From an uncultured Holophagaceae bacterium (GTDB taxonomy: Bacteria > Acidobacteriota > Holophagae > Holophagales > Holophagaceae), in assembly GCA_903913215.1 (NCBI GenBank), contig CAIWKE010000028.1:124001-188000 (forward strand): a stretch of DNA of 64,000 nt, given 5' to 3'. Below are positions 7,421-17,859 of this stretch, piece after piece. How positions within the stretch are numbered: position 1 is the stretch's first letter; each line of letters begins with the position of its first letter. Position numbers and translations under genes: made by a program. Under the pieces are notes generated by a model. That model made no database searches and was not told the origin of the DNA. It was given only the letters and a program-made list of their open reading frames with translations.

Positions 7421-8800
7421 CTAGCTCTCCCTGGGCTCGATGCCCAGGGCCTTGAGGCGCTTGTAGAGGTTGGAACGGTCCATGCCCACGCGCTCGGCCA
7501 CGCGGGTCATGTTGCCGTTCTGGAGGCGCAGCTCCCGCTGCAGGTACGTGGTCTCAAACCAGTCCTTGGCGTCCTTGAGGCTGGCGAAGTCCGGGAAGGA
7601 GAAGGGATCCTGCTCGGCCAGGTGCCGCATGGCCAGGGGGCCCAGGTCCCGGGGGCTGAGCTCCTGGCCGCGGCTGAGGATGACGGCCCGCTCCATGAGG
7701 TTCTTCAGCTCACGCACATTGCCGGGCCAGTCGTGGCGCAGCAGGGTGTCCTTGGCGTCGGGGCCCAGGTGCTTGGGGGGCCGACCGTACTGCCGGGCGA
7801 TGCGGGAGATGAAGGCCTCCGCCAGGGGCAGGATGTCCTCGGGCCGTTCGCGCAGGGGCGGGATGCGCAGGGGCACCACGGCCAGGCGGAAGAAGAGGTC
7901 CTCCCGGAAGCGGCCTTTGGTGATCTCGCTGGGCAGGTCCTTGTTGGTGGCGGCGATGACGCGCACGTCCACACCCACGGCGCCACCGCCGCCCACGGGC
8001 TCCACACGGCCCTCCTGGAGGGCTCGCAGCACCTTGGCCTGGGTCTTGAGGGACATGTCGCCGATCTCATCCAGGAAGAGGGTGCCGCCGTCGGCCTCGC
8101 GGAACTTGCCCTTCTGATCCCGGATGGCGCCGGTGAAGGCACCCTTCTGATGACCGAAGAGTTCGCTCTCGATGAGCTCCTCAGGGATGGCCGCGCAGTT
8201 CACCTCGATGAAGGGGGCGTCCTTGCGGGGGCTCTGCAGGTGCAGCAGGCGGGCCACCTCCTCCTTGCCACTGCCGTTCTCGCCCGTGAGCAGTACCCGG
8301 CCTTCAGTAGGCGCCACCAGGGCCACATCGGCCATGAGGCGGCGCATGGCGGGGCTGTCCGCGAGGAAAAAGCGGCCGCCTTCGACTTCCGCCAGGAGGC
8401 GCTGGTTTTCTCGCTCCAGCTTGGACTGGCGCAGGGCGTTGCCCACCACCAGCAGCAGGCGGTCCAGATCGATGGGCTTCTCAAGAAAATCGAAGGCGCC
8501 CAGCTTGGTGGCCTGCAGGGCCGTGTCGATGCTGGCGTGGCCTGAGATCATCACCACCGGTAAGTCCGGGCGGATCTGCTTGGCCTGCTTCAGGGTCTCC
8601 AGGCCGTCCTGGCCCGGCAGCCACACGTCCAGCAGCATGAGCTGCAGGCTCTCGCCGTCGGGATTGTGCAACAGGTCGATGGCCTGCTCGCCCCGCTCGG
8701 CCTTCACCACCTGGTAGCCCTCGTCCTTCAGGGCTTCGCCCAGGGACCGCCGGATCCCCGGCTCGTCGTCCACCAGCAGAATGGTCGTGGGAGGGCGCAT
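7421..8800 (-). CDS. NtrC-family sigma-54-dependent response regulator
   Basis: A 459-residue protein with a receiver domain (residues ~5-120: LLVDDEP, phospho-acceptor Asp in LLDVWLP, EKPID lysine). An AAA+ domain follows with Walker A GENGSGKE, the canonical sigma-54 contact loop GAFTGA, Walker B GGTLFLDEIGD and the R-fingers. The C-terminus is a Fis-type helix-turn-helix (MTRVAERVGMDRSNLYKRLKAL). I chose ATG 8800 because the receiver begins there and a GAGG lies just upstream; the open frame extends to 8935 but that segment is not domain-like. No histidine kinase is adjacent. Targets would be sigma-54 promoters. Confidence 0.93.
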   Translation of the reverse strand: MRPPTTILLVDDEPGIRRSLGEALKDEGYQVVKAERGEQAIDLLHNPDGESLQLMLLDVWLPGQDGLETLKQAKQIRPDLPVVMISGHASIDTALQATKLGAFDFLEKPIDLDRLLLVVGNALRQSKLERENQRLLAEVEGGRFFLADSPAMRRLMADVALVAPTEGRVLLTGENGSGKEEVARLLHLQSPRKDAPFIEVNCAAIPEELIESELFGHQKGAFTGAIRDQKGKFREADGGTLFLDEIGDMSLKTQAKVLRALQEGRVEPVGGGGAVGVDVRVIAATNKDLPSEITKGRFREDLFFRLAVVPLRIPPLRERPEDILPLAEAFISRIARQYGRPPKHLGPDAKDTLLRHDWPGNVRELKNLMERAVILSRGQELSPRDLGPLAMRHLAEQDPFSFPDFASLKDAKDWFETTYLQRELRLQNGNMTRVAERVGMDRSNLYKRLKALGIEPRES

Positions 8801-8874
8801 ACCCTCATGCTGGACGCCGGACAAGCCTTTGTCTAGCAGGTGGTTGAGGGAGAACCTTCCAGAAGGGTCGAATC

Positions 8875-8904
8875 CCGACCCCGGGGCTTGGGCCCCGGGG
8901 TCGG
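8875..8904. terminator. perfect 13-bp hairpin between rhodanese gene and NtrC-like gene
   Basis: CCGACCCCGGGGC (8875-8887) pairs exactly with GCCCCGGGGTCGG (8892-8904) around a 4-base loop. It sits 49 bases after the stop of the minus-strand rhodanese gene. No clear U-tract follows on either strand, so it may be a transcription end or an mRNA-stabilising stem. Confidence 0.5.
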
Positions 8905-8952
8905 ATCCAGCACTCTGGACGGGTCTGAGAAGCACAAACTCGGCTAGGGTCC

Positions 8953-10335
8953 CTAGTCGAGGGTGAACTCACCAGTGTCGATGATGGTGATCTCAGAATT
9001 GAGGAAGCTGGCGTTATAGCCCTTTTCCTTCAGCAGGTGGTAAGCCAACTCGGCGCGGACGCCGGTGGCGCAGTGGGTGATCACCAACAGGTTCTTGTCC
9101 TTCGGAAGTTCTCCAAGGCGCGAAGCCAGGGTCGGTTCCGGGATGACCAAGGCGCCCTTGATGATGCCATTCACAGCCTCATCGTGGTTCCGCACGTCCA
9201 GGATGAGCACATTCTTGCGCTGCTCAGGCGGGAGGCTGGCGATCCGGGTGAACTCATCGTTGGAGATAGAACCTGGGCGAGGTTTGGGGACATAGGTCAC
9301 TTGGGCTGCAAGCTTGCCTTGCACCACCGGGTAGCCTGCCGCTTGCCAGGCCTTGTAGCCGCCCTCCAGCACATTCACGCCGGGGTAGCCGGCCTTGACG
9401 AGGTCTTGGGCCAGTTTTCGGGCGGGCTCGCCGCCCTCCCCGTCCACCACCAGGACCGGGGGCTTCAGCTTCGGGCTAGGGAAGGTCCGCAGCAGTTCGG
9501 TGACTTTGGTCGGATCGGTGGCCACGGCCCCTTTGAGGGCCCCCAGTTCCGCTTGGCTGCGGAGGTCCAGGATGATCGTGGGGATGTCCTTGTCGAGGAT
9601 GGCCTCCTTGAAGGACCGGGGTGCGATGGTGCCGAAATTCCTGCCATACCAGCCGGGCATGCCATCCACGAAGACCTTGACGTTGGTGTAGCCCAGGGCC
9701 TGGGCCTTCCGGAAGGATCCAGGGCTCATGTTGCAGGTCTTTCCGCTGCAGTAGTAGACGATCAGAGCAGCCTTGTCCTTAGGCAGCTTGTCCACCAGCT
9801 TGTCGAAGGCGGGGAAGGGCAGGTTCACGGCGGTGGGGATGTTCCCCTCTTGGAAGCGGGGGGCCGGGCGGCAATCCACCAGGAAGTACTTTCCCTTTTC
9901 GGGTCCCAGGGCCACCAGCTTCTCGACCTCGGCCAGGGAGATCGTGTCGTTCATGGCGAGGGAGACCGGTGGCTTCACCGACACCACCTGGGCAGTCTTG
10001 ACGCCGCCCTGCTCGGTGTATTCCACCCGGACCTCGTGGCCCTTCTTGATGGCCTTGAGGGAATCCTCCACCGTGGCGCCAGCCTCGTGTGTCTTCACCT
10101 TCAGGCTGGCCTTGTCGTAGCGGAATACCTCCATGGCGTCATCGAGCTTCACCTGGAAGGAGTTGACCTTCCCGGCGAAGTTGTCGAAGGTGCCCCGGAT
10201 GTTGCCCGGAGCTGTCTGGTGGCAGTTGAGGCAGATCTTGGCGGCGTTGGGGCGGGGTGGAGCCGGGTCCGCGGCCCTCAGTGCGAAGGCGGCGGTACAG
10301 ATCCAGAGGATGGGCAGCAGGGTTGAGCGGGGCAT
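8953..10335 (-). CDS. exported haem c-binding protein with three rhodanese domains
   Basis: A 460-residue exported protein. The signal peptide is MPRSTLLPILWICTAAFALRA; the start at 10335 is set by a GGAGG five bases upstream. A single c-type haem motif CLNCH lies at residues 35-39. Three rhodanese-like domains follow. The first has a cysteine loop (YCSGKTCN). The second has lost the cysteine (VVDGEGGEP). The third has CATGVR. Rhodaneses carry persulfide sulfur on that cysteine, so two domains could bind sulfane sulfur in the periplasm next to a haem. It is the last gene of the cytochrome operon, 33 bases after the cytochrome b gene, supporting a role in sulfur-compound or related electron transfer. 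Confidence 0.85.
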   Translation of the reverse strand: MPRSTLLPILWICTAAFALRAADPAPPRPNAAKICLNCHQTAPGNIRGTFDNFAGKVNSFQVKLDDAMEVFRYDKASLKVKTHEAGATVEDSLKAIKKGHEVRVEYTEQGGVKTAQVVSVKPPVSLAMNDTISLAEVEKLVALGPEKGKYFLVDCRPAPRFQEGNIPTAVNLPFPAFDKLVDKLPKDKAALIVYYCSGKTCNMSPGSFRKAQALGYTNVKVFVDGMPGWYGRNFGTIAPRSFKEAILDKDIPTIILDLRSQAELGALKGAVATDPTKVTELLRTFPSPKLKPPVLVVDGEGGEPARKLAQDLVKAGYPGVNVLEGGYKAWQAAGYPVVQGKLAAQVTYVPKPRPGSISNDEFTRIASLPPEQRKNVLILDVRNHDEAVNGIIKGALVIPEPTLASRLGELPKDKNLLVITHCATGVRAELAYHLLKEKGYNASFLNSEITIIDTGEFTLD

Positions 10336-10368
10336 GTAACCTCCAGGGGGGCTGAACACGAAGGGGGC

Positions 10369-10992
10369 CTAGGCTTGGTCGAAATACTCGTCGTCGTGCA
10401 GGTCTTCCCAACCCAGCAGCATGGCCTTGAGGTTGGTCATGGGTGTGTGCCCGGTGGTGGTGAGATACACGTGGCCGATCAGGAAGGCCACCAGGGCGAA
10501 GGCGCCCAGCACGTGGACCACGGCGACGAACCAGAGCGAGGTCGGGGACCAGCCCATGGTGTGCTGCAGGTTCGGGTAGAAGAAGTAGAGGGCGCCGGTG
10601 CTGATCTGCACCGGGATGATGAGCACCTTGAAGCCCAGGTAGGCCAGGCGCTGCAGGGGATTGAGCTTGGCCATGCGGTGTTTCTTCACCGGGTGCGGAG
10701 CCCCCTTGAAGATGCCCGTCAGGTAGAAACGCACCATCTCCTGGAGGAACTTGCGGGTGGGGATGTACTGGCGCCATTCCCCAGTCGTGACATGCCAGAA
10801 GATGGCGAAAACGATGAGGGTGATTAGGGCCAGGGCCAGGTAGTTGTGGAGGGTGACCGCTCGGGCGAACCCGAAGATATGGGGCCCCACCCCCCGGATC
10901 TCAAAGCCCGTGAGCATCATGGTGAGGATCAGCAGGGCCTGGGCCCAGTGCCAGAAGCGTTCAAACAGTTCGTAGAGGACGACGCGTCGCAT
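10369..10992 (-). CDS. membrane cytochrome b (cytochrome b561/FdnI-like di-haem subunit)
   Basis: A 207-residue protein with four predicted membrane helices. The haem-ligand histidines expected for the FdnI/HydC-type cytochrome b family are visible: an FERFWHWAQA helix, VTLHNYLAL, a C-terminal VVHVLGAFAL helix and the LIGHVYLTTTGHTP motif. Such subunits exchange electrons between the menaquinone pool and a periplasmic partner. It begins within 10 bases of the stop of the octahaem cytochrome gene, with a TAGGAG ribosome-binding site. It is therefore the natural quinone-linked membrane anchor for that cytochrome. Confidence 0.88.
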   Translation of the reverse strand: MRRVVLYELFERFWHWAQALLILTMMLTGFEIRGVGPHIFGFARAVTLHNYLALALITLIVFAIFWHVTTGEWRQYIPTRKFLQEMVRFYLTGIFKGAPHPVKKHRMAKLNPLQRLAYLGFKVLIIPVQISTGALYFFYPNLQHTMGWSPTSLWFVAVVHVLGAFALVAFLIGHVYLTTTGHTPMTNLKAMLLGWEDLHDDEYFDQA

Positions 10993-10999
10993 GGGGCTC

Positions 11000-12613
11000 C
11001 TACTTCCGGCCGTGAAGGGTGCGGATGAGGCCGTGGGTGGCCACGCCGAGGATGGTGAGGAGGATCATGCCGAAGCCGAGCACATCAATGCCCATGCCCC
11101 GATCCCGTCCCAGGAGGTAGAAGCCGCCGACCTGTTCCAGACGCCCCTTCTTCGCGTGGCACTCGGTGCAGGCCAGGGCCTGCTCCTTGGGGGCGACCAT
11201 GTGGGTGATGGGCCACAGCATGGTGGTGCGGACGTAGTCGAACTTGCCGCTGTAGGGCAGGCCCGCCGTCTCCATGCCCTTCTGGACGGCGACATCCATC
11301 TTCCAGTCACCCCAGTAGGCGCCGCTGCCTGCAGGGCCATCCGTGAAGGGCGCCACGAAGGTGTTGTTCACGGGATCGAAGGGCTGGGTGGCCTCGTGGA
11401 ACTTGAAGGGCCAGATCTTGGCCTTGGGATCGGCGTAGGAACCCTCGGCAGGGTTCATCACGATGGGTCGGGCGGCAGGCAGCTTGTCCGTCAGGCGGAG
11501 GAAGTCGAGGTTGCCGTTGTACCAGACGTAGGTGGGCTTGACGTTCCGCTCCCAGACCATCTTCCCGCGCATGCTGGTGTAGGTGGGCCAGCCGTTGGCG
11601 TCCTTCTCTTCGTAGGGACGGCCGTCCTTCAGGCGGCCCGAGGTGGCCCAGTCCCAGAAGGTGTTGGTGGGCCGCTCGCCGCGGGCGAAGGCCGGAATGT
11701 GGCAAGTCTGGCAGGCGATCTTCTGGTAGTGGCGGTTCAGGACATAGGACTGGTGGGGCGCCACGGTGTGACAGGCCGGGCAGGCCATGCGGGAGATGCT
11801 TTCGCCCGCGAACTTGGGCTCGTCCCGGCGATCTGCGGGGATGACGTAGTTGGGTCCGCCGACTTTGTGCTCAGCGGAGGTGTGGCAATCGACACAGTCC
11901 ATGCCCGCGCCCTGCCTGGACATGTGGACGTCTTCAGTCCGGGGAGCCTTCAGGATCGTGTCGTCCAGGTCGCCGTGCTTGGTGGCATTGGCGCCGCCGC
12001 CGAAGAAATGGCAGGCTCCACAGTTTTTGTTGGTGGGGGTACCCACTTTCTGGGCGATCTCGGCCAGGGGAACGGCCGGATTGGGCATCCCCGCCCGCTC
12101 CTTTTCGTAGTCCCCCGTGGTGTCGTGGCAGACCAGGCAGTCTACGTTCTCCTGCTTGGTGAAGTCGAAGGTCTTGTCCTTGAAGCCATAGCCCGCATGG
12201 CAGCGGGTGCAGCCTTCGGTGTTGCCGCCCACGATGGTCAGGCAGTAGTTGTTCACGAGGGCCGTGGACTTGCCATAGCCGTTCTTCCCATCCTTGGCGA
12301 CATTCCAAGTCCAGTGGGAGGTGGCCATCATCTGCTCAGCGGCCTTGGTGTGGCAGGTGAGGCAGGCCCGGGTCACCGCAGGACCATCACCATCCTTGAA
12401 GGGCCCCTTCAGGGCGGTGAACTTGCTGTGGTCAGCTGTCTGGGAGCGCATCTTGGCCGCGTGGGAGGCCGTGAATGATCCGTGGCCGGCGGGATTGGGC
12501 CCAACCGCTTCCTGGGCGCCACCTGAAAACGGGATGAGAACCAGCAGGCCGGCAAGGACGCGGAGGAAGCCCCTCATCCTGGGCGGGGATGGTCTTCGGG
12601 GAGGGTGAGGCAT
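11000..12613 (-). CDS. octahaem c-type cytochrome, tetrathionate reductase family
   Basis: A 537-residue exported cytochrome with exactly eight CXXCH motifs in order: CLTCH, CTRCH, CLVCH, CGACH, CVDCH, CPACH, CQTCH, CTECH. An N-terminal signal peptide (MRGFLRVLAGLLVLIPFSGGAQ) follows a short basic extension. One hydrophobic helix at the C-terminus (VLGFGMILLTILGVATHGLI) should anchor it in the inner membrane. Haem number, order and length match the octahaem tetrathionate reductase (OTR) family, whose Shewanella member reduces tetrathionate, nitrite and hydroxylamine in vitro. The physiological substrate here is not shown by sequence. An AGGAG site precedes the ATG. Confidence 0.9.
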   Translation of the reverse strand: MPHPPRRPSPPRMRGFLRVLAGLLVLIPFSGGAQEAVGPNPAGHGSFTASHAAKMRSQTADHSKFTALKGPFKDGDGPAVTRACLTCHTKAAEQMMATSHWTWNVAKDGKNGYGKSTALVNNYCLTIVGGNTEGCTRCHAGYGFKDKTFDFTKQENVDCLVCHDTTGDYEKERAGMPNPAVPLAEIAQKVGTPTNKNCGACHFFGGGANATKHGDLDDTILKAPRTEDVHMSRQGAGMDCVDCHTSAEHKVGGPNYVIPADRRDEPKFAGESISRMACPACHTVAPHQSYVLNRHYQKIACQTCHIPAFARGERPTNTFWDWATSGRLKDGRPYEEKDANGWPTYTSMRGKMVWERNVKPTYVWYNGNLDFLRLTDKLPAARPIVMNPAEGSYADPKAKIWPFKFHEATQPFDPVNNTFVAPFTDGPAGSGAYWGDWKMDVAVQKGMETAGLPYSGKFDYVRTTMLWPITHMVAPKEQALACTECHAKKGRLEQVGGFYLLGRDRGMGIDVLGFGMILLTILGVATHGLIRTLHGRK

Positions 12614-12695
12614 GAAAGCTCCTGAACGCAGAGGGGCCGAACGGCTGCTGAAATGGGCAGGGCCCGTAGGCTGGGAGCCTCCGGGCCCTGCAGGT

Positions 12696-14405
12696 CTAGA
12701 ACTTCACTTCGATGGAGGCGTAGAAGTTCTTCACGGTGGCGGGGTAGCCGTACTGGAGGGTGGGGTTCTTGGCCAGGTCATTGGCCGCTTCCCAGGTGCC
12801 GGACATGGGCGAGGGGCCGATCTGCCAGCCGCTCATGGCGGAGGTGTAGCTGTAGTCGATGTAGCCGAGGCGCAGGGCCGCATTCTTGGCGAAGCGCCAG
12901 TGGATGTAGGCTTCCCACACGTCGCCGCGGGCCCCGAGCTTGTCGGTGTATTCACCGGTAGCGGGGGTGTAGGTCCACCAGCGGGGTGACCCGTGGTTGA
13001 ACTCCAGGCCCACGCCGAAGGTGGAGGTGGGGTCGTAGCGCACACCCACGTAGGTGGCCGAGGCGGTCTGGCTGTTGTTGGGATCGCCCATGAGGCCGCC
13101 GAACCCGGTCACCTGCATGGTCTTGCCGCCAAGGGCCGAGGGCATGGTCCAGTAGGCGCCGTACTGGGAGACTTGGCCATTGGGATGGCTCTTGAGGTAG
13201 CCGGCGCTCACGAAGTAGGTGAAGGTGTCGCCGATCTTGTGCTTCCAGGTGGCGGTCAGCTGGTCCAAGTCGCCCAGGTTGGCCGTGGCCGTGACGTACT
13301 GGGTGGAGGGCGTCATGCCGGGGATGGGGAAGTTGACCGTGCTTCCGTAGGGGATGTCGGTCATGTTGCCCATGCGGTTGAAGCCCAGGTAGAAGTTCGC
13401 GCTGTGCACCGATTCGCCGAGCTGGAAGAGCAGGGGCATGTCGAACATGACGCCCAGCACCGTGGTGTCCTTCAGGGACCCGAAGCTGCCGACCACCGGA
13501 CTGATGACCGAGGGGTTCGTGCCGTTGAAGCCCGTGAAGTTCATGCCCACGATGGTCGAGTTGTTCTTGACTGCGCCGCCGCCGCCGAAGCCGCTCTCAT
13601 AGCCCACGCCATAGCAGAAGCCCAGCAGGGTGCCTTCGGGGAGGCCGAGCTTCTCGAGCTCGAACTTCCAGCCGATGCCGTCGATGCTGGCGTTCACGGC
13701 CAGGGCCTGGGGCGTCGCGTTGCGCTCGCTGCCTTCGCGCACTTCAAACGGCGGGCCGTCGGAGGTGTTCTGGCGGCCGATGGAGAGGATGCTGAAGGCG
13801 GAGGGGAAGTGGTAGACCAGGCTGGCCCGCTCGACCAGCAGCGCGTCCGTGGCTGGAGTCTGGCCCGCCGTGAAGGAGGTGCTGATGGTATTGGGCGTGC
13901 CATTGAAGGTGGGCACGTCGGCCCCGCCATGGACCTTGTACATTACGAGCCGGCCCATGATCTTGGCGTTCTCGTTGATGGTCATGCCCATGTTCAGGCG
14001 GAGCCGGGTGGACCACTGGACGGAGTTCGTCAGATCCTGGGAGGCCATGGGTTGGGTCATGGGCATGAAGGGGTAGCTGTTCGGATTCGCGGGATTGAAT
14101 CCGCCGAGGGTGTAGCCCGGGTTGTTCGCGAAGCCCATGAACTGGTTGTAGGGCTTGAAGTGCTCCTGAGTGCTGTCGAAGCGGGTGCGGAGATCACCGC
14201 CCCAGGAGATGTTGTTGCCGGCGACCTTGGTCTCGACCTTGACCAGGCGGTTGTCGACTTCCTGGACGGCGGCGGTCTTTTCTTCGAGGGCCTGCAACTG
14301 CGTCTTCAGCTGCTTGATCTGCTTTTGCAGATCCTCATTGGTCTGGGCACTCAGGGCCACTGGCGCCAGCATGGCGACCAGGGCGAAGGTGATGCGGGAT
14401 TTCAT
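12696..14405 (-). CDS. outer-membrane beta-barrel protein with N-terminal coiled coil (DUF3373-like porin)
   Basis: A 569-residue protein with a signal peptide (MKSRITFALVAMLAPVALSA). A short coiled coil follows (residues ~22-60, EDLQKQIKQLKTQLQALEEK). The remainder is a long series of alternating amphipathic strands rich in Gly, Tyr and Asn, ending in an aromatic (IEVKF), the usual outer-membrane barrel C-terminal signature. The architecture suits DUF3373/trimeric-porin-like proteins. It is gene two of the cytochrome operon (AAGGAG ribosome-binding site). This placement suggests it admits substrate or forms a conduit with the cytochromes, which is inference. Confidence 0.8.
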   Translation of the reverse strand: MKSRITFALVAMLAPVALSAQTNEDLQKQIKQLKTQLQALEEKTAAVQEVDNRLVKVETKVAGNNISWGGDLRTRFDSTQEHFKPYNQFMGFANNPGYTLGGFNPANPNSYPFMPMTQPMASQDLTNSVQWSTRLRLNMGMTINENAKIMGRLVMYKVHGGADVPTFNGTPNTISTSFTAGQTPATDALLVERASLVYHFPSAFSILSIGRQNTSDGPPFEVREGSERNATPQALAVNASIDGIGWKFELEKLGLPEGTLLGFCYGVGYESGFGGGGAVKNNSTIVGMNFTGFNGTNPSVISPVVGSFGSLKDTTVLGVMFDMPLLFQLGESVHSANFYLGFNRMGNMTDIPYGSTVNFPIPGMTPSTQYVTATANLGDLDQLTATWKHKIGDTFTYFVSAGYLKSHPNGQVSQYGAYWTMPSALGGKTMQVTGFGGLMGDPNNSQTASATYVGVRYDPTSTFGVGLEFNHGSPRWWTYTPATGEYTDKLGARGDVWEAYIHWRFAKNAALRLGYIDYSYTSAMSGWQIGPSPMSGTWEAANDLAKNPTLQYGYPATVKNFYASIEVKF

Positions 14406-14454
14406 CGGATGTCTCCTTGGGTGAATCGAACCGGGGGGATTCGGGAAAGGTCGC

Positions 14455-14772
14455 TCAACCGCCGCAAGTCATGGGCTGGGGGGAGTCCGAGGCGTGGGCT
14501 GTCAGGAAGGTCTGGATGTCGTTCATCTGCTCAGGCTTCCCGACCTTGGTCAGGGGCTCGCTGCCCTTCTTGTGCTTGCCGGCTGCGAAGTAGGTCTTCC
14601 ACTGGGCCTGGGTCTTGATGAGGGGCGTGACTTCACCGCCAGGCTGGCCAACCACATGGCAGGACTTGCAGGACTTCTTGAAGAAGTACTTCCCCTTGGT
14701 GTCGCTGCCTTCGGCAGCCAGGGGCGCCGCGAGCAGGGCGAGGAGGGCGAGGAGGGGCACGGCGGTCCGCAT
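14455..14772 (-). CDS. small periplasmic monohaem cytochrome c
   Basis: A 105-residue protein with a signal peptide (MRTAVPLLALLALLAAPLAAEG) and one CKSCH haem motif near residue 35. A plausible distal Met lies in QMNDIQTFL. It is the first gene of the five-gene operon and its ATG is preceded by AAGGA. It probably shuttles electrons between the cytochrome b/octahaem pair and another periplasmic partner. The C-terminus (MTCGG) carries an extra unpaired cysteine. Confidence 0.87.
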   Translation of the reverse strand: MRTAVPLLALLALLAAPLAAEGSDTKGKYFFKKSCKSCHVVGQPGGEVTPLIKTQAQWKTYFAAGKHKKGSEPLTKVGKPEQMNDIQTFLTAHASDSPQPMTCGG

Positions 14773-14930: not shown

Positions 14931-14944
14931 GTGACTATGATCAC
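14931..14944. promoter_or_regulatory. Crp-type palindrome upstream of cytochrome operon
   Basis: GTGA-CTATGA-TCAC is a perfect Crp/Fnr-superfamily half-site pair (GTGA-N6-TCAC). It lies 24 bases from the FNR-like box, in an AT-rich stretch between the operon and the divergent ferredoxin-like gene, and could serve either direction. Confidence 0.5.
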
Positions 14945-15232
14945 TAATAATTAAATAACCAGACAGTAATTTAAAATGTATCTAATTCCTGGCACGGTTC
15001 TGGGGTCATGCCACTCAGGTGGAAGGTGCACCACCCGGAGAAAAATCCACACCCGGACATGGGCCAAAAGACCCTCGAACGCCGGTAAGCGTTTGGGGAG
15101 CTCCGCGACTTTCTGGCTGCCACCGAACCTCTGGGTGTGGCGGTGGCAGCCAGGCTCAGTGCCAAACCTAGGTTGTTCCAGCGCCCTCGCCCTAAGCTTG
15201 ATTACGCTGCTCTGATCGCCGAGGATGGCTTC

Positions 15233-15610
15233 ATGGATGAACCTCACCCCCTGCCCAGCCCTGAACAGGACGCCGCTCTGGCCCCCATCATCAAGCTGGA
15301 CTTGAAACGCCAAGTGCTGGTCTGTACCGCGAAAAGCTGCGCTGCCAACGGCTCCGAGGCCGTGTTGGAGGCCTTCCGCGCGCAGCTCGCGGCGGAACAG
15401 TTGCTTTTCTTCAAGGGCAACACCTCCGGTGAGATCCACTGCAGTCACTGCGGCTCCGTGGGTTTCTGCGCCATCGGCCCCGCTGTGCTGATCTACCCCG
15501 ATGGCATCTGGTACGCCCACGTCACTGTTGCGGACGTCCCCGAGATCATCGAGTCCCACCTCAAGGGCGGTGTGGCCGTTGAGCGTCTTGTCCGCAAGCG
15601 GCTGGGTTGA
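15233..15610 (+). CDS. (2Fe-2S) ferredoxin-domain protein, thioredoxin-fold type
   Basis: A 125-residue protein from ATG 15233 (GAGG eight bases upstream); an in-frame GTG at 15137 would add 32 residues. The core looks like the NuoE/HoxE-type thioredoxin-like ferredoxin: VLVCTAKSCAANGSE supplies a CX4C pair, and HCSHCGSVGFCAIGP sits where the second cysteine pair normally is. The tail VTVADVPEIIESHLKGG is also typical. The second pair is not the usual CX3C: serine occupies the expected first cysteine, with two extra cysteines just before. Cluster ligation may thus differ. It is divergent from the cytochrome operon. Confidence 0.75.
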   Translation: MDEPHPLPSPEQDAALAPIIKLDLKRQVLVCTAKSCAANGSEAVLEAFRAQLAAEQLLFFKGNTSGEIHCSHCGSVGFCAIGPAVLIYPDGIWYAHVTVADVPEIIESHLKGGVAVERLVRKRLG

Positions 15611-16103: not shown

Positions 16104-16682
16104 TCAGCGTCCTGCCTCGAATTCGCTCCGTTCTTCGGGGGTATCCACATCAGCCCACTCGGGGCCCTCCTGCGGCAGGGCGAGGTGGGGCAGGGCCTGG
16201 ACCAGCCTCAGCAGGGAGGCGCCAGTGCTTTGGGACAGGGCCGGCCGCAGGGCCTGGGGCAGCCAGCCGCCGAGGGGCTGCAGATGCCCTTCATGGAGGG
16301 CCAGCACCCAGTGGGCCGCGGCGGGATCCGCGGCTTCACAGGTCTGGGTCCAGGCCTCGAGGCGCTCGGGGGTCCAGCGCACCTGATCGCAGGCCACCAC
16401 CCACCAGCGCTCGACGTTGAGCTGAGCAGCAGGCAGCAGGATCTTCGCCCAGTGGCGCAGGGCCAGGGCCGGTCCTTGGCGGGGATCATCCAGCCGGGGC
16501 AGGGCGGGGTGGTCTGGCAGGGCCTCGCCTAGTATCTGGATCGGGCCCTCTGGATGGAGCGCCTGGAAGACCCGCACCAGGTGCCCGCCCCAGGTGCCGC
16601 CCTCGGGATGGGCGAGGTCCTGCTTGGCGGTCCCCATGCGGCGACTGCCCCCGCCGCTGAGCAGCAGGAGTCCGGCCTTCAC
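16104..16682 (-). CDS. mobA: molybdenum cofactor nucleotidyltransferase-like protein (MobA-type)
   Basis: A 192-residue NTP-transferase. The nucleotide-binding signature LLLLSGGGSRRMGTAK corresponds to the MobA/MocA LAGGxSxRMGxxK loop, and an ACDQV segment stands at the metal-binding Asp position. MobA attaches GMP to molybdopterin. The start is the GTG at 16682, whose GTGA overlaps the stop of moaA, a translational-coupling arrangement; an open frame extends upstream to 16742 but is not domain-like. Pairing with moaA supports a cofactor role, although a MocA-type specificity cannot be excluded. Confidence 0.75.
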   Translation of the reverse strand: MKAGLLLLSGGGSRRMGTAKQDLAHPEGGTWGGHLVRVFQALHPEGPIQILGEALPDHPALPRLDDPRQGPALALRHWAKILLPAAQLNVERWWVVACDQVRWTPERLEAWTQTCEAADPAAAHWVLALHEGHLQPLGGWLPQALRPALSQSTGASLLRLVQALPHLALPQEGPEWADVDTPEERSEFEAGR

Positions 16683-17713
16683 CCGCCCACCTGCCAGGGG
16701 CCCCAGGGCAGGCCGGACTGCCCCAGGGGTAGGGCGGGACACTCCACCTTCTGAGTCAGGGCCTGGCGCACGAGGCGCACCAGCTCCTCATGGGTGGCGT
16801 GGTGGCGCAGGGGCCCCAGCAGGTCCACGGGCTCGTTGGCGAAAATGCAGGCCTTCAGCAGGCCCCGGCTGCTGAGGCGCACCCGGTGGCAGCGGTCGCA
16901 GACCGGCGTGCTGAGGGTGGCGATGATCCCCACCAGGGCGGCGCTGCCCGGGATCCTGAAGAGTCGCGCGGGGCCTTCCTCGGGCCCCAGCGAGGGCTCC
17001 GGCTCCAGGGTCTGGCCCAGGCCCTGGAGCAGCGTCTGGAAGATCTCCGCCGCCGCCATGAACCGGCCGCCGCGCCAACCATTGGCCAGGTGTGGCTGGG
17101 CAGTAGCGCCCTGGTGCAGGGTGCTGCCCGTGTGGGGCATGTACTCGATGAAGCGGATCTGGACTCCCTCCCGCTGGGCCAGACGGGCCAGGGGCAGGAT
17201 CTGATCCTCGTTGGCCCCCCGGAGCACCACGGCGTTCAGCTTGGTCTCCAGCCCCACGGCCCGGGCCGCATCTAGGCCAGCCAGGGCTCGGCTCAGCCCG
17301 TCCCGGCCCGACAGGCGCCGGAAGCTCTCACGGTCCGCCGCGTCCAGGCGGAGGTTGATGCCGGCCAGGCCCGCGTCGCGCAGGCCCCGGGCGCGCCGGG
17401 CCAGGAGGAGGCCATTGGTGCTGAGGTGGACCCGGCCCTCCACCTCGGGGCTGAGGCCAGCGATGAGGGGCTCCAGGTCCCGGCGAAGCAGCGGCTCGCC
17501 CCCGGTGAGGCGCACCTTCCGGGCGCCCAGGCTGGTGAAGACCTGCGCCAGGCGCAGGACTTCCTGCCGGGTCATGGGCGAACTGAGGCTCTTGAGCGAG
17601 TCCGGGGCCGGTGAGTAGGCACTGACCAGATTGCAGCGGGCCGTGACGGAAAGGCGGAGGTAGGTGATGTCCCGACCCAGCCCGTCCCGGAGGCACTCCT
17701 TCACCCGGAGCAT
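16679..17713 (-). CDS. moaA: MoaA-like protein lacking two of three radical-SAM cysteines
   Basis: A 344-residue protein aligned by eye to GTP 3',8-cyclase: MLRVKECLRDGLGRDITYLRLSV start region, GGEP motif, a C-terminal second-cluster motif CDRCHRVRLSSRGLLKAC, and a final Gly-Gly. MoaA normally has CX3CX2C for the SAM-binding 4Fe-4S cluster. Here the triplet is C27, S31, S34 (codons TGC, AGT, TCA at 17635-17633, 17623-17621, 17614-17612). This should prevent normal radical-SAM chemistry. The second cluster and GG tail are intact, and the gene is coupled to mobA, so it is not an obvious decayed pseudogene. Open frame and alternative starts extend to 17827. Confidence 0.82.
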   Translation of the reverse strand: MLRVKECLRDGLGRDITYLRLSVTARCNLVSAYSPAPDSLKSLSSPMTRQEVLRLAQVFTSLGARKVRLTGGEPLLRRDLEPLIAGLSPEVEGRVHLSTNGLLLARRARGLRDAGLAGINLRLDAADRESFRRLSGRDGLSRALAGLDAARAVGLETKLNAVVLRGANEDQILPLARLAQREGVQIRFIEYMPHTGSTLHQGATAQPHLANGWRGGRFMAAAEIFQTLLQGLGQTLEPEPSLGPEEGPARLFRIPGSAALVGIIATLSTPVCDRCHRVRLSSRGLLKACIFANEPVDLLGPLRHHATHEELVRLVRQALTQKVECPALPLGQSGLPWGPWQVGG

Positions 17714-17859
17714 GCGGGGCAGCAGGTGCTTCTCGGGCAGTGGGAAGAGGGCGGACACGGAGGCTCCGGGAGCTTTCAGAATGCAGGTACCCGCAGGCCC
17801 CGGGCAGGGCATCGTGCTACAGGTCACAGGGGTTGTGATCGCCGTGAGACCATGGAGGC

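Follow-up and report, generated by a model that had tools for sequence, protein, structure and literature searches.

Which compound is processed by an octahaem cytochrome that is encoded together with an outer-membrane barrel and a haem-carrying rhodanese? The question is raised by a locus of an uncultured Holophagaceae bacterium (GCA_903913215.1, contig CAIWKE010000028.1, positions 124,001-188,000 of the forward strand; this whole stretch of 64,000 nt is called the window below). An earlier note on this DNA had described five co-directional, tightly spaced genes, and this was confirmed: genes for a cytochrome c, a porin, the octahaem cytochrome (OTR), a cytochrome b561 and a haem rhodanese follow one another in this order on the - strand inside 8953-14772. 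The gaps are 49 bp between cytochrome c and porin, 82 bp between porin and OTR, 7 bp between OTR and cytochrome b561, and 9 bp between cytochrome b561 and rhodanese (33 bp with the rhodanese start at the ATG at 10335). The locus is single-copy in the genome and comprises the following features:

14931..14944, - strand: palindrome GTGATCATAGTCAC of the CRP/FNR type, predicted operator, 159 bp upstream of the cytochrome c start

14455..14772, - strand: periplasmic monohaem cytochrome c of 105 aa (PF00034) with the C-terminal Cys tail DSPQPMTCGG

12696..14405, - strand: outer-membrane porin of 569 aa, DUF3373/Omp50-like (PF11853, 200 bits; PDB 10aw)

11000..12613, - strand: octahaem cytochrome OTR of 537 aa with a C-terminal membrane helix (TIGR04315, 538 bits; 1sp3)

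10369..10992, - strand: cytochrome b561-type quinol oxidoreductase of 207 aa, partner of OTR (PF01292)

8953..10359, - strand: periplasmic haem rhodanese of 468 aa with one CXXCH and three rhodanese domains (PF00581, three stretches)

7421..8935, - strand: sigma-54 response regulator, flank in both versions of the locus; likely start at an ATG near 8802

15137..15610, + strand: 2Fe-2S ferredoxin-like protein, opposite flank in both versions of the locus (NF041612)

Exactly eight CXXCH motifs are present in the OTR and one each in the cytochrome c and the rhodanese; this count and the matches to TIGR04315, PF01292 and PF11853 bear out the eight motifs in one protein, the membrane cytochrome and the barrel of the first description. 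The octahaem protein scored 538 bits with TIGR04315, whose cut-off is 375, and aligned over 427 residues to the OTR of Shewanella oneidensis (1sp3; E 1.6e-110), and it is classed by these matches as a true OTR. By position in this alignment, Cys64 of 1sp3 is matched by C124 and its Lys153 by K212. In the 1sp3 structure determined by Mowat in 2004, Lys153 is reported to be a ligand of the active-site haem, with Cys64 close by. The equivalents of C124 and K212 were invariant in 80 of 80 alignable sequences, and of 81 aligned sequences at least 80 retained any given one of the eight haem sites, with a gap in the other sequence. The Shewanella protein thus has the eight CXXCH motifs, the two residues and the overall sequence in common with the one described here, which differs from it by a C-terminal membrane helix, a cytochrome b561 partner and its place on a cytochrome c-porin chassis. 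A hydrophobic C-terminal helix was observed in 68 of 79 OTR sequences. In the great majority of 80 loci, drawn from many phyla, the cytochrome b gene directly follows the OTR gene, to which it is sometimes fused. The Shewanella OTR receives its electrons via CymA and STC (PMC4484225). An OTR with an adjoining membrane cytochrome b was noted earlier in Thermosulfurimonas dismutans (TDIS_1882-1883; PMC4911364); as far as the accessible part of that account goes, the two pairs are alike, and the porin, the haem rhodanese and an exchange with Psr/Phs go without mention in it. The genome groups with Geothrix/Holophagaceae, the named closest relatives of the OTR being Geothrix and Holophagaceae records; five distant OTRs were found on plasmids. 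In the OTR tree, close OTRs occupy both porin loci and an unrelated context of the znuA type. A second OTR-cytochrome b context in Geothrix has, just upstream, genes for a response regulator, a ZnuA-like metal-binding protein, a TrmO-like protein and usually a NifX-like protein (L034, L035, L036, L037, L041, L143).

A strong indication of what the OTR does in the cell comes from the same locus in sister Geothrix, in which psrABC-torD follows the cytochrome c-porin pair; these genes encode a PhsA/PsrA-like molybdoenzyme together with a 4Fe-4S subunit, a membrane subunit resembling NrfD and a chaperone resembling TorD. The flanks are collinear: tatD, moaA, mobA and the ferredoxin gene border the locus at one end, and merR and the gene for the sigma-54 response regulator at the opposite end. 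This identity of the flanks indicates a swap in place. The Psr version is clearest in L168 and was also seen, with some flank genes absent, in L163, L166 and L179. The sigma-54 response regulator is a neighbour of the Psr-type loci L162, L163, L166, L168 and L179, and the 2Fe-2S ferredoxin-like gene also adjoins Psr-type loci. The best score of the molybdoenzyme catalytic subunit was to PhsA (620 bits, below the NCBIfam cut-off of 694), and its closest PDB entry was the thiosulfate reductase 2vpw (E 4.8e-130). The molybdopterin catalytic, FeS and NrfD subunits are absent from the locus in the window and are found at the equivalent site in the sister species, where this complex, resembling PhsABC/PsrABC (2vpw), fills the equivalent slot with the cytochrome c, porin, operator and regulator in common. 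The two enzymes are non-homologous, the one being a molybdopterin enzyme with 4Fe-4S and NrfD subunits and the other an octahaem cytochrome. Judged by gene order and homology, the porin-cytochrome c pair, the putative operator and the flanking regulator are common to the two versions, and the predicted catalytic cassette, either OTR-cytochrome b or psrABC-torD, is exchanged.

For the comparison, the ORFs of high-GC loci were called with codon-position GC. A census of the family covered 77 genomes, which are not independent of each other, 57 with and 20 without the porin; the neighbour of the porin was a molybdoenzyme in 38, an OTR in 14 and a divergent OTR in 2, and 3 porins lay at contig ends. 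OTR or molybdoenzyme was encoded directly downstream in 43 of 43 non-redundant porin loci. The Holophagaceae porin tree (24 sequences) needs at least six changes of partner, five of them imposed by branches with good support. The hypothesis that all OTR-partnered porins form one clade was rejected on this tree (p-AU 0.00017). Nine partner changes were obtained on the phylum-wide porin tree, and L243 and L244 carry nearly identical porins next to different reductases. A tree of porins is no tree of species, and MAGs are numerous among the genomes; since the flanks are collinear within assembled contigs, misassembly is an unlikely cause of the swap. The reductase was exchanged in place at least 5-6 times. 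Some Geothrix carry OTR and molybdoenzyme at separate loci, so that the two need not be strictly equivalent, which counts against a plain replacement of one by the other. The new element is this repeated exchange of molybdenum and haem reductases on one chassis, a replacement of Mo by haem (or the reverse) in respiration. Because it takes place under a common operator, porin and cytochrome, it amounts to natural complementation evidence for the cellular role of OTR, and the slot shared with a thiosulfate/polysulfide-type reductase is a strong genomic hint of OTR function in the cell.

A porin, a divergent OTR-like octahaem protein and a molybdopterin oxidoreductase occur in one cluster in L177:5459-12936 and in G325:C220:13837-18994, and such clusters may connect the two versions. 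In the second moaA copy of the genome, which flanks the locus (16682-17827, - strand), the radical-SAM motif CxxxCxxC is lost (RCNLVSAYS versus QCNLACVYC); another moaA, scoring above cut-off, is present elsewhere in the genome. G252 and G313 show the same loss of the motif, and in G040 and G260 the copy was not seen; in most Psr-type loci the motif of the flanking moaA is intact. Since it is also intact in several OTR loci, decay of the flanking moaA with loss of the Mo enzyme is only suggested by these sequences.

The palindrome upstream of the cytochrome c gene is shared by both versions as a putative CRP/FNR-type operator. One locus type is represented by 10 Geothrix loci, of which six have OTR and four have Psr, and GTGA-N6-TCAC was found at equal distance upstream of cytochrome c in every one of them. 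The background frequency is 0.34 per kb, which gives a chance of about 0.12 per 360-bp segment. As the relatedness of the sequences inflates any product of such chances, better evidence is provided by L235 and L239, which differ in their upstream sequence and in which the arms of the palindrome are kept and the core is changed. The palindrome was not found at that place in the Geothrix OTR loci L142, L148 and L241, nor outside the genus. An Rrf2-type regulator is encoded upstream of cytochrome c in L142, L148 and L179, and downstream of cytochrome b or the rhodanese in L042 and L045.

Taken with rather more confidence than doubt, the operon would encode a quinol-linked periplasmic reductase of a small soluble S-S compound, presumably tetrathionate, thiosulfate or polysulfide, that replaces a PhsA/PsrA-type molybdoenzyme. 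The Omp50-like porin would let the substrate in. Cytochrome b561 would oxidise menaquinol and hand the electrons to the OTR, anchored in the inner membrane, by which the S-S substrate would be reduced at the Lys-ligated haem next to the conserved Cys. Serving both types of reductase, the cytochrome c with its terminal Cys would handle electrons or, possibly via its tail, sulfane sulfur, which the haem rhodanese would accept or deliver. The anaerobic-type reductase with a quinol donor that the earlier note proposed is supported by the quinol-oxidising b561 partner, and the sulfur-oxyanion flavour that it saw by the slot shared with a PhsA/PsrA-type enzyme and by OTR-cytochrome b relatives beside YeeE, SoxYZ and rhodanese. 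Its interpretation is thus partly supported, being right in direction and too wide in that it admitted an electron conduit. Against the S-S reading count the PhsA score below the cut-off, the ability of PsrA-like enzymes to take other substrates, and the activity of OTR in vitro, which extends from tetrathionate to nitrite and hydroxylamine.

That the same machinery acts on nitrite, hydroxylamine or NO, in ammonification or in relief of nitrosative stress, is quite unlikely. The reduction of nitrite and hydroxylamine by OTR in vitro, reported in PMC4484225 with reference to Atkinson 2007, is in line with it, as is the Rrf2-type regulator, of a family including NO sensors, adjoining L142/L148. 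It is opposed by the nature of the exchange partner, which is PhsA-like and no nitrite reductase, by an NrfA-like protein already encoded in the genome, and by the sulfur genes that several OTRs of other lineages have as neighbours.

These neighbours favour the S-S reading. In other Acidobacteriota (L151, L161), OTR, with or without cytochrome b, is followed by split YeeE-type transporters (PF04143), one half of which is fused to a rhodanese domain. In lucinid symbionts, rhodanese and soxYZ flank an OTR-cytochrome b fusion (PMC11237559; L048, L065). A rhodanese with several domains lies directly beside OTR in that island as in the window; the island differs in the fusion of cytochrome b to OTR, in the addition of SoxYZ and in a rhodanese without CXXCH, and neither porin nor cytochrome c was found adjoining. 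In Dethiobacter a rhodanese lies beside an Otr/SirA-like octahaem protein that is up on thiosulfate (PMC10376724). Of 80 loci, 17 had a rhodanese ORF no further than 3 kb from OTR, 8 of the 17 being similar Stutzerimonas-type loci, versus 5 of 80 at 4-7 kb (Fisher p 0.01); that the enrichment in other phyla is modest counts against the S-S reading. OTR-cytochrome b genes of Pseudomonadota near SQR-like, SoxYZ and cytochrome bd genes would also fit an oxidase of reduced sulfur, for instance from thiosulfate to tetrathionate, with the quinone pool as its electron acceptor. The usual role of cytochrome b561 partners is to supply reductases, however, and the exchange at the same site is with a PhsA/PsrA-type reductase, so that such an oxidase is considered unlikely. 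In genomes of the Hydrogenophaga type (L080, L088, L098, L106), OTR-cytochrome b is found among cydAB-like, Rieske, DUF6858, metallo-beta-lactamase, ACR3-like and globin genes, and in L106 a TsoY-family protein adjoins OTR. A search of the literature yielded nothing usable on TsoY or on growth of Geothrix with thiosulfate.

The porin scored 200 bits against a cut-off of 26.1 with PF11853 and is similar to the 50 kDa outer membrane protein (Omp50) in PDB 10aw, with E values of 1.2e-21 for the profile and 7e-16 for the single sequence. The NCBIfam models, ExtI among them, gave no match to the barrel at 0.01. The DUF3373 family (TC 1.B.62) has been listed as an 18-strand pore family (PMC4827864), and beyond a porin table nothing on DUF3373 was found in the literature. 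An AlphaFold2 model of the porin made from 8 sequences was too poor for a strand count (pLDDT 33.6), and no DUF3373 relative was found on plasmids. The ext clusters of Geobacter (extHI and further genes), one of which concerns selenite and tellurite, also unite rhodanese, porin and cytochromes (PMC5877670); the present locus differs from them in a barrel without NCBIfam match and the lack of a surface cytochrome. This likeness speaks for reduction of a selenium, tellurium or arsenic oxyanion instead of a sulfur compound. OTR is not known to be part of ext; some PsrA-like enzymes do use selenium, tellurium or arsenic oxyanions. Set against the unmatched barrel, the negligible score of OTR with ExtM (14 bits, cut-off 800) and the YeeE and SoxYZ neighbours of OTR relatives, which favour sulfur, such a substrate is improbable.

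A porin adjoining a multihaem cytochrome, in a relative of the metal-reducing Geothrix, could also be regarded as an outer-membrane electron conduit for extracellular acceptors, an alternative left standing by the earlier note. It is the least likely of the explanations and very improbable: the barrel is of the Omp50/DUF3373 type and matches no MtrB or ExtI family, and the OTR has its own C-terminal anchor in the inner membrane. As the first description already had it, no outer-surface cytochrome is present in the locus, and the 64-kb window is without a further multihaem ORF, each of the other CXXCH-bearing ORFs having one motif. The porin is moreover paired equally with OTR and with a Mo enzyme of soluble substrates, which argues for entry of substrate and not for conduction of electrons. 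The Omp50-like porin is best read, from its family and its partners, as probably admitting the substrate, and not as a conduit.

The cytochrome c has the C-terminus HAxDSxxPxTCG or a close form beside both types of reductase. Its terminal Cys was present in 35 of 36 homologues, OTR and Psr contexts together, and is often the sole cysteine outside the haem motif. The locus thus draws attention to a cytochrome c, so far unstudied, whose terminal cysteine is strongly conserved. Tentatively, and with more doubt than confidence, a chassis for sulfur respiration in Acidobacteriota may be envisaged, in which an Omp50-like porin and a cytochrome c with a C-terminal Cys carrying sulfane sulfur, in the manner of the SoxY swinging arm but on a haem protein, would be combined with interchangeable molybdopterin and octahaem reductases under one operator.

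The rhodanese does not belong to this conserved core. The earlier note had called it a haem-bearing triple rhodanese, which holds for the three PF00581 domains and the one CXXCH; a catalytic Cys is present in domains 1 and 3 only, and the middle domain is without it in 20 of 20 orthologues, so that only two of the domains can carry persulfide. The CXXCH, C204, C209 and C430 were kept in 20 of 20 orthologues. A lack of conserved gene order elsewhere, named by the earlier note as grounds for refutation, was not observed for cytochrome c-porin-OTR-cytochrome b: the four genes were found again in this order in Holophagaceae, and Acidobacteriota further removed have cytochrome c-porin-OTR. But the haem rhodanese lies inside the operon in three genomes only (window, L032, L045). 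The five genes, which the earlier note treated as one operon type, are therefore not one conserved unit, the locus being modular with a variable reductase slot. Otherwise the rhodanese gene stands alone elsewhere in the genome, in many Geothrix beside an ftsK-like gene, or, as in L167, immediately follows a psr-type operon. Among the family genomes, which are not independent, it was present in 38 of 57 with the porin and in 0 of 20 without it. It accompanied Psr-type loci in 32 of 38 cases and OTR-type loci in 5 of 14, which counts against the S-S reading of the operon given above. The haem rhodanese is best read as a mobile accessory. No relative of it was found in viral contigs, and an AlphaFold2 model from 3 sequences was too poor for a fold search (pLDDT 52.7). 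In other Geothrix (L134-L139), the haem rhodanese beside the ftsK-like gene is near a membrane protein that has no Pfam match and carries one CXXCH.
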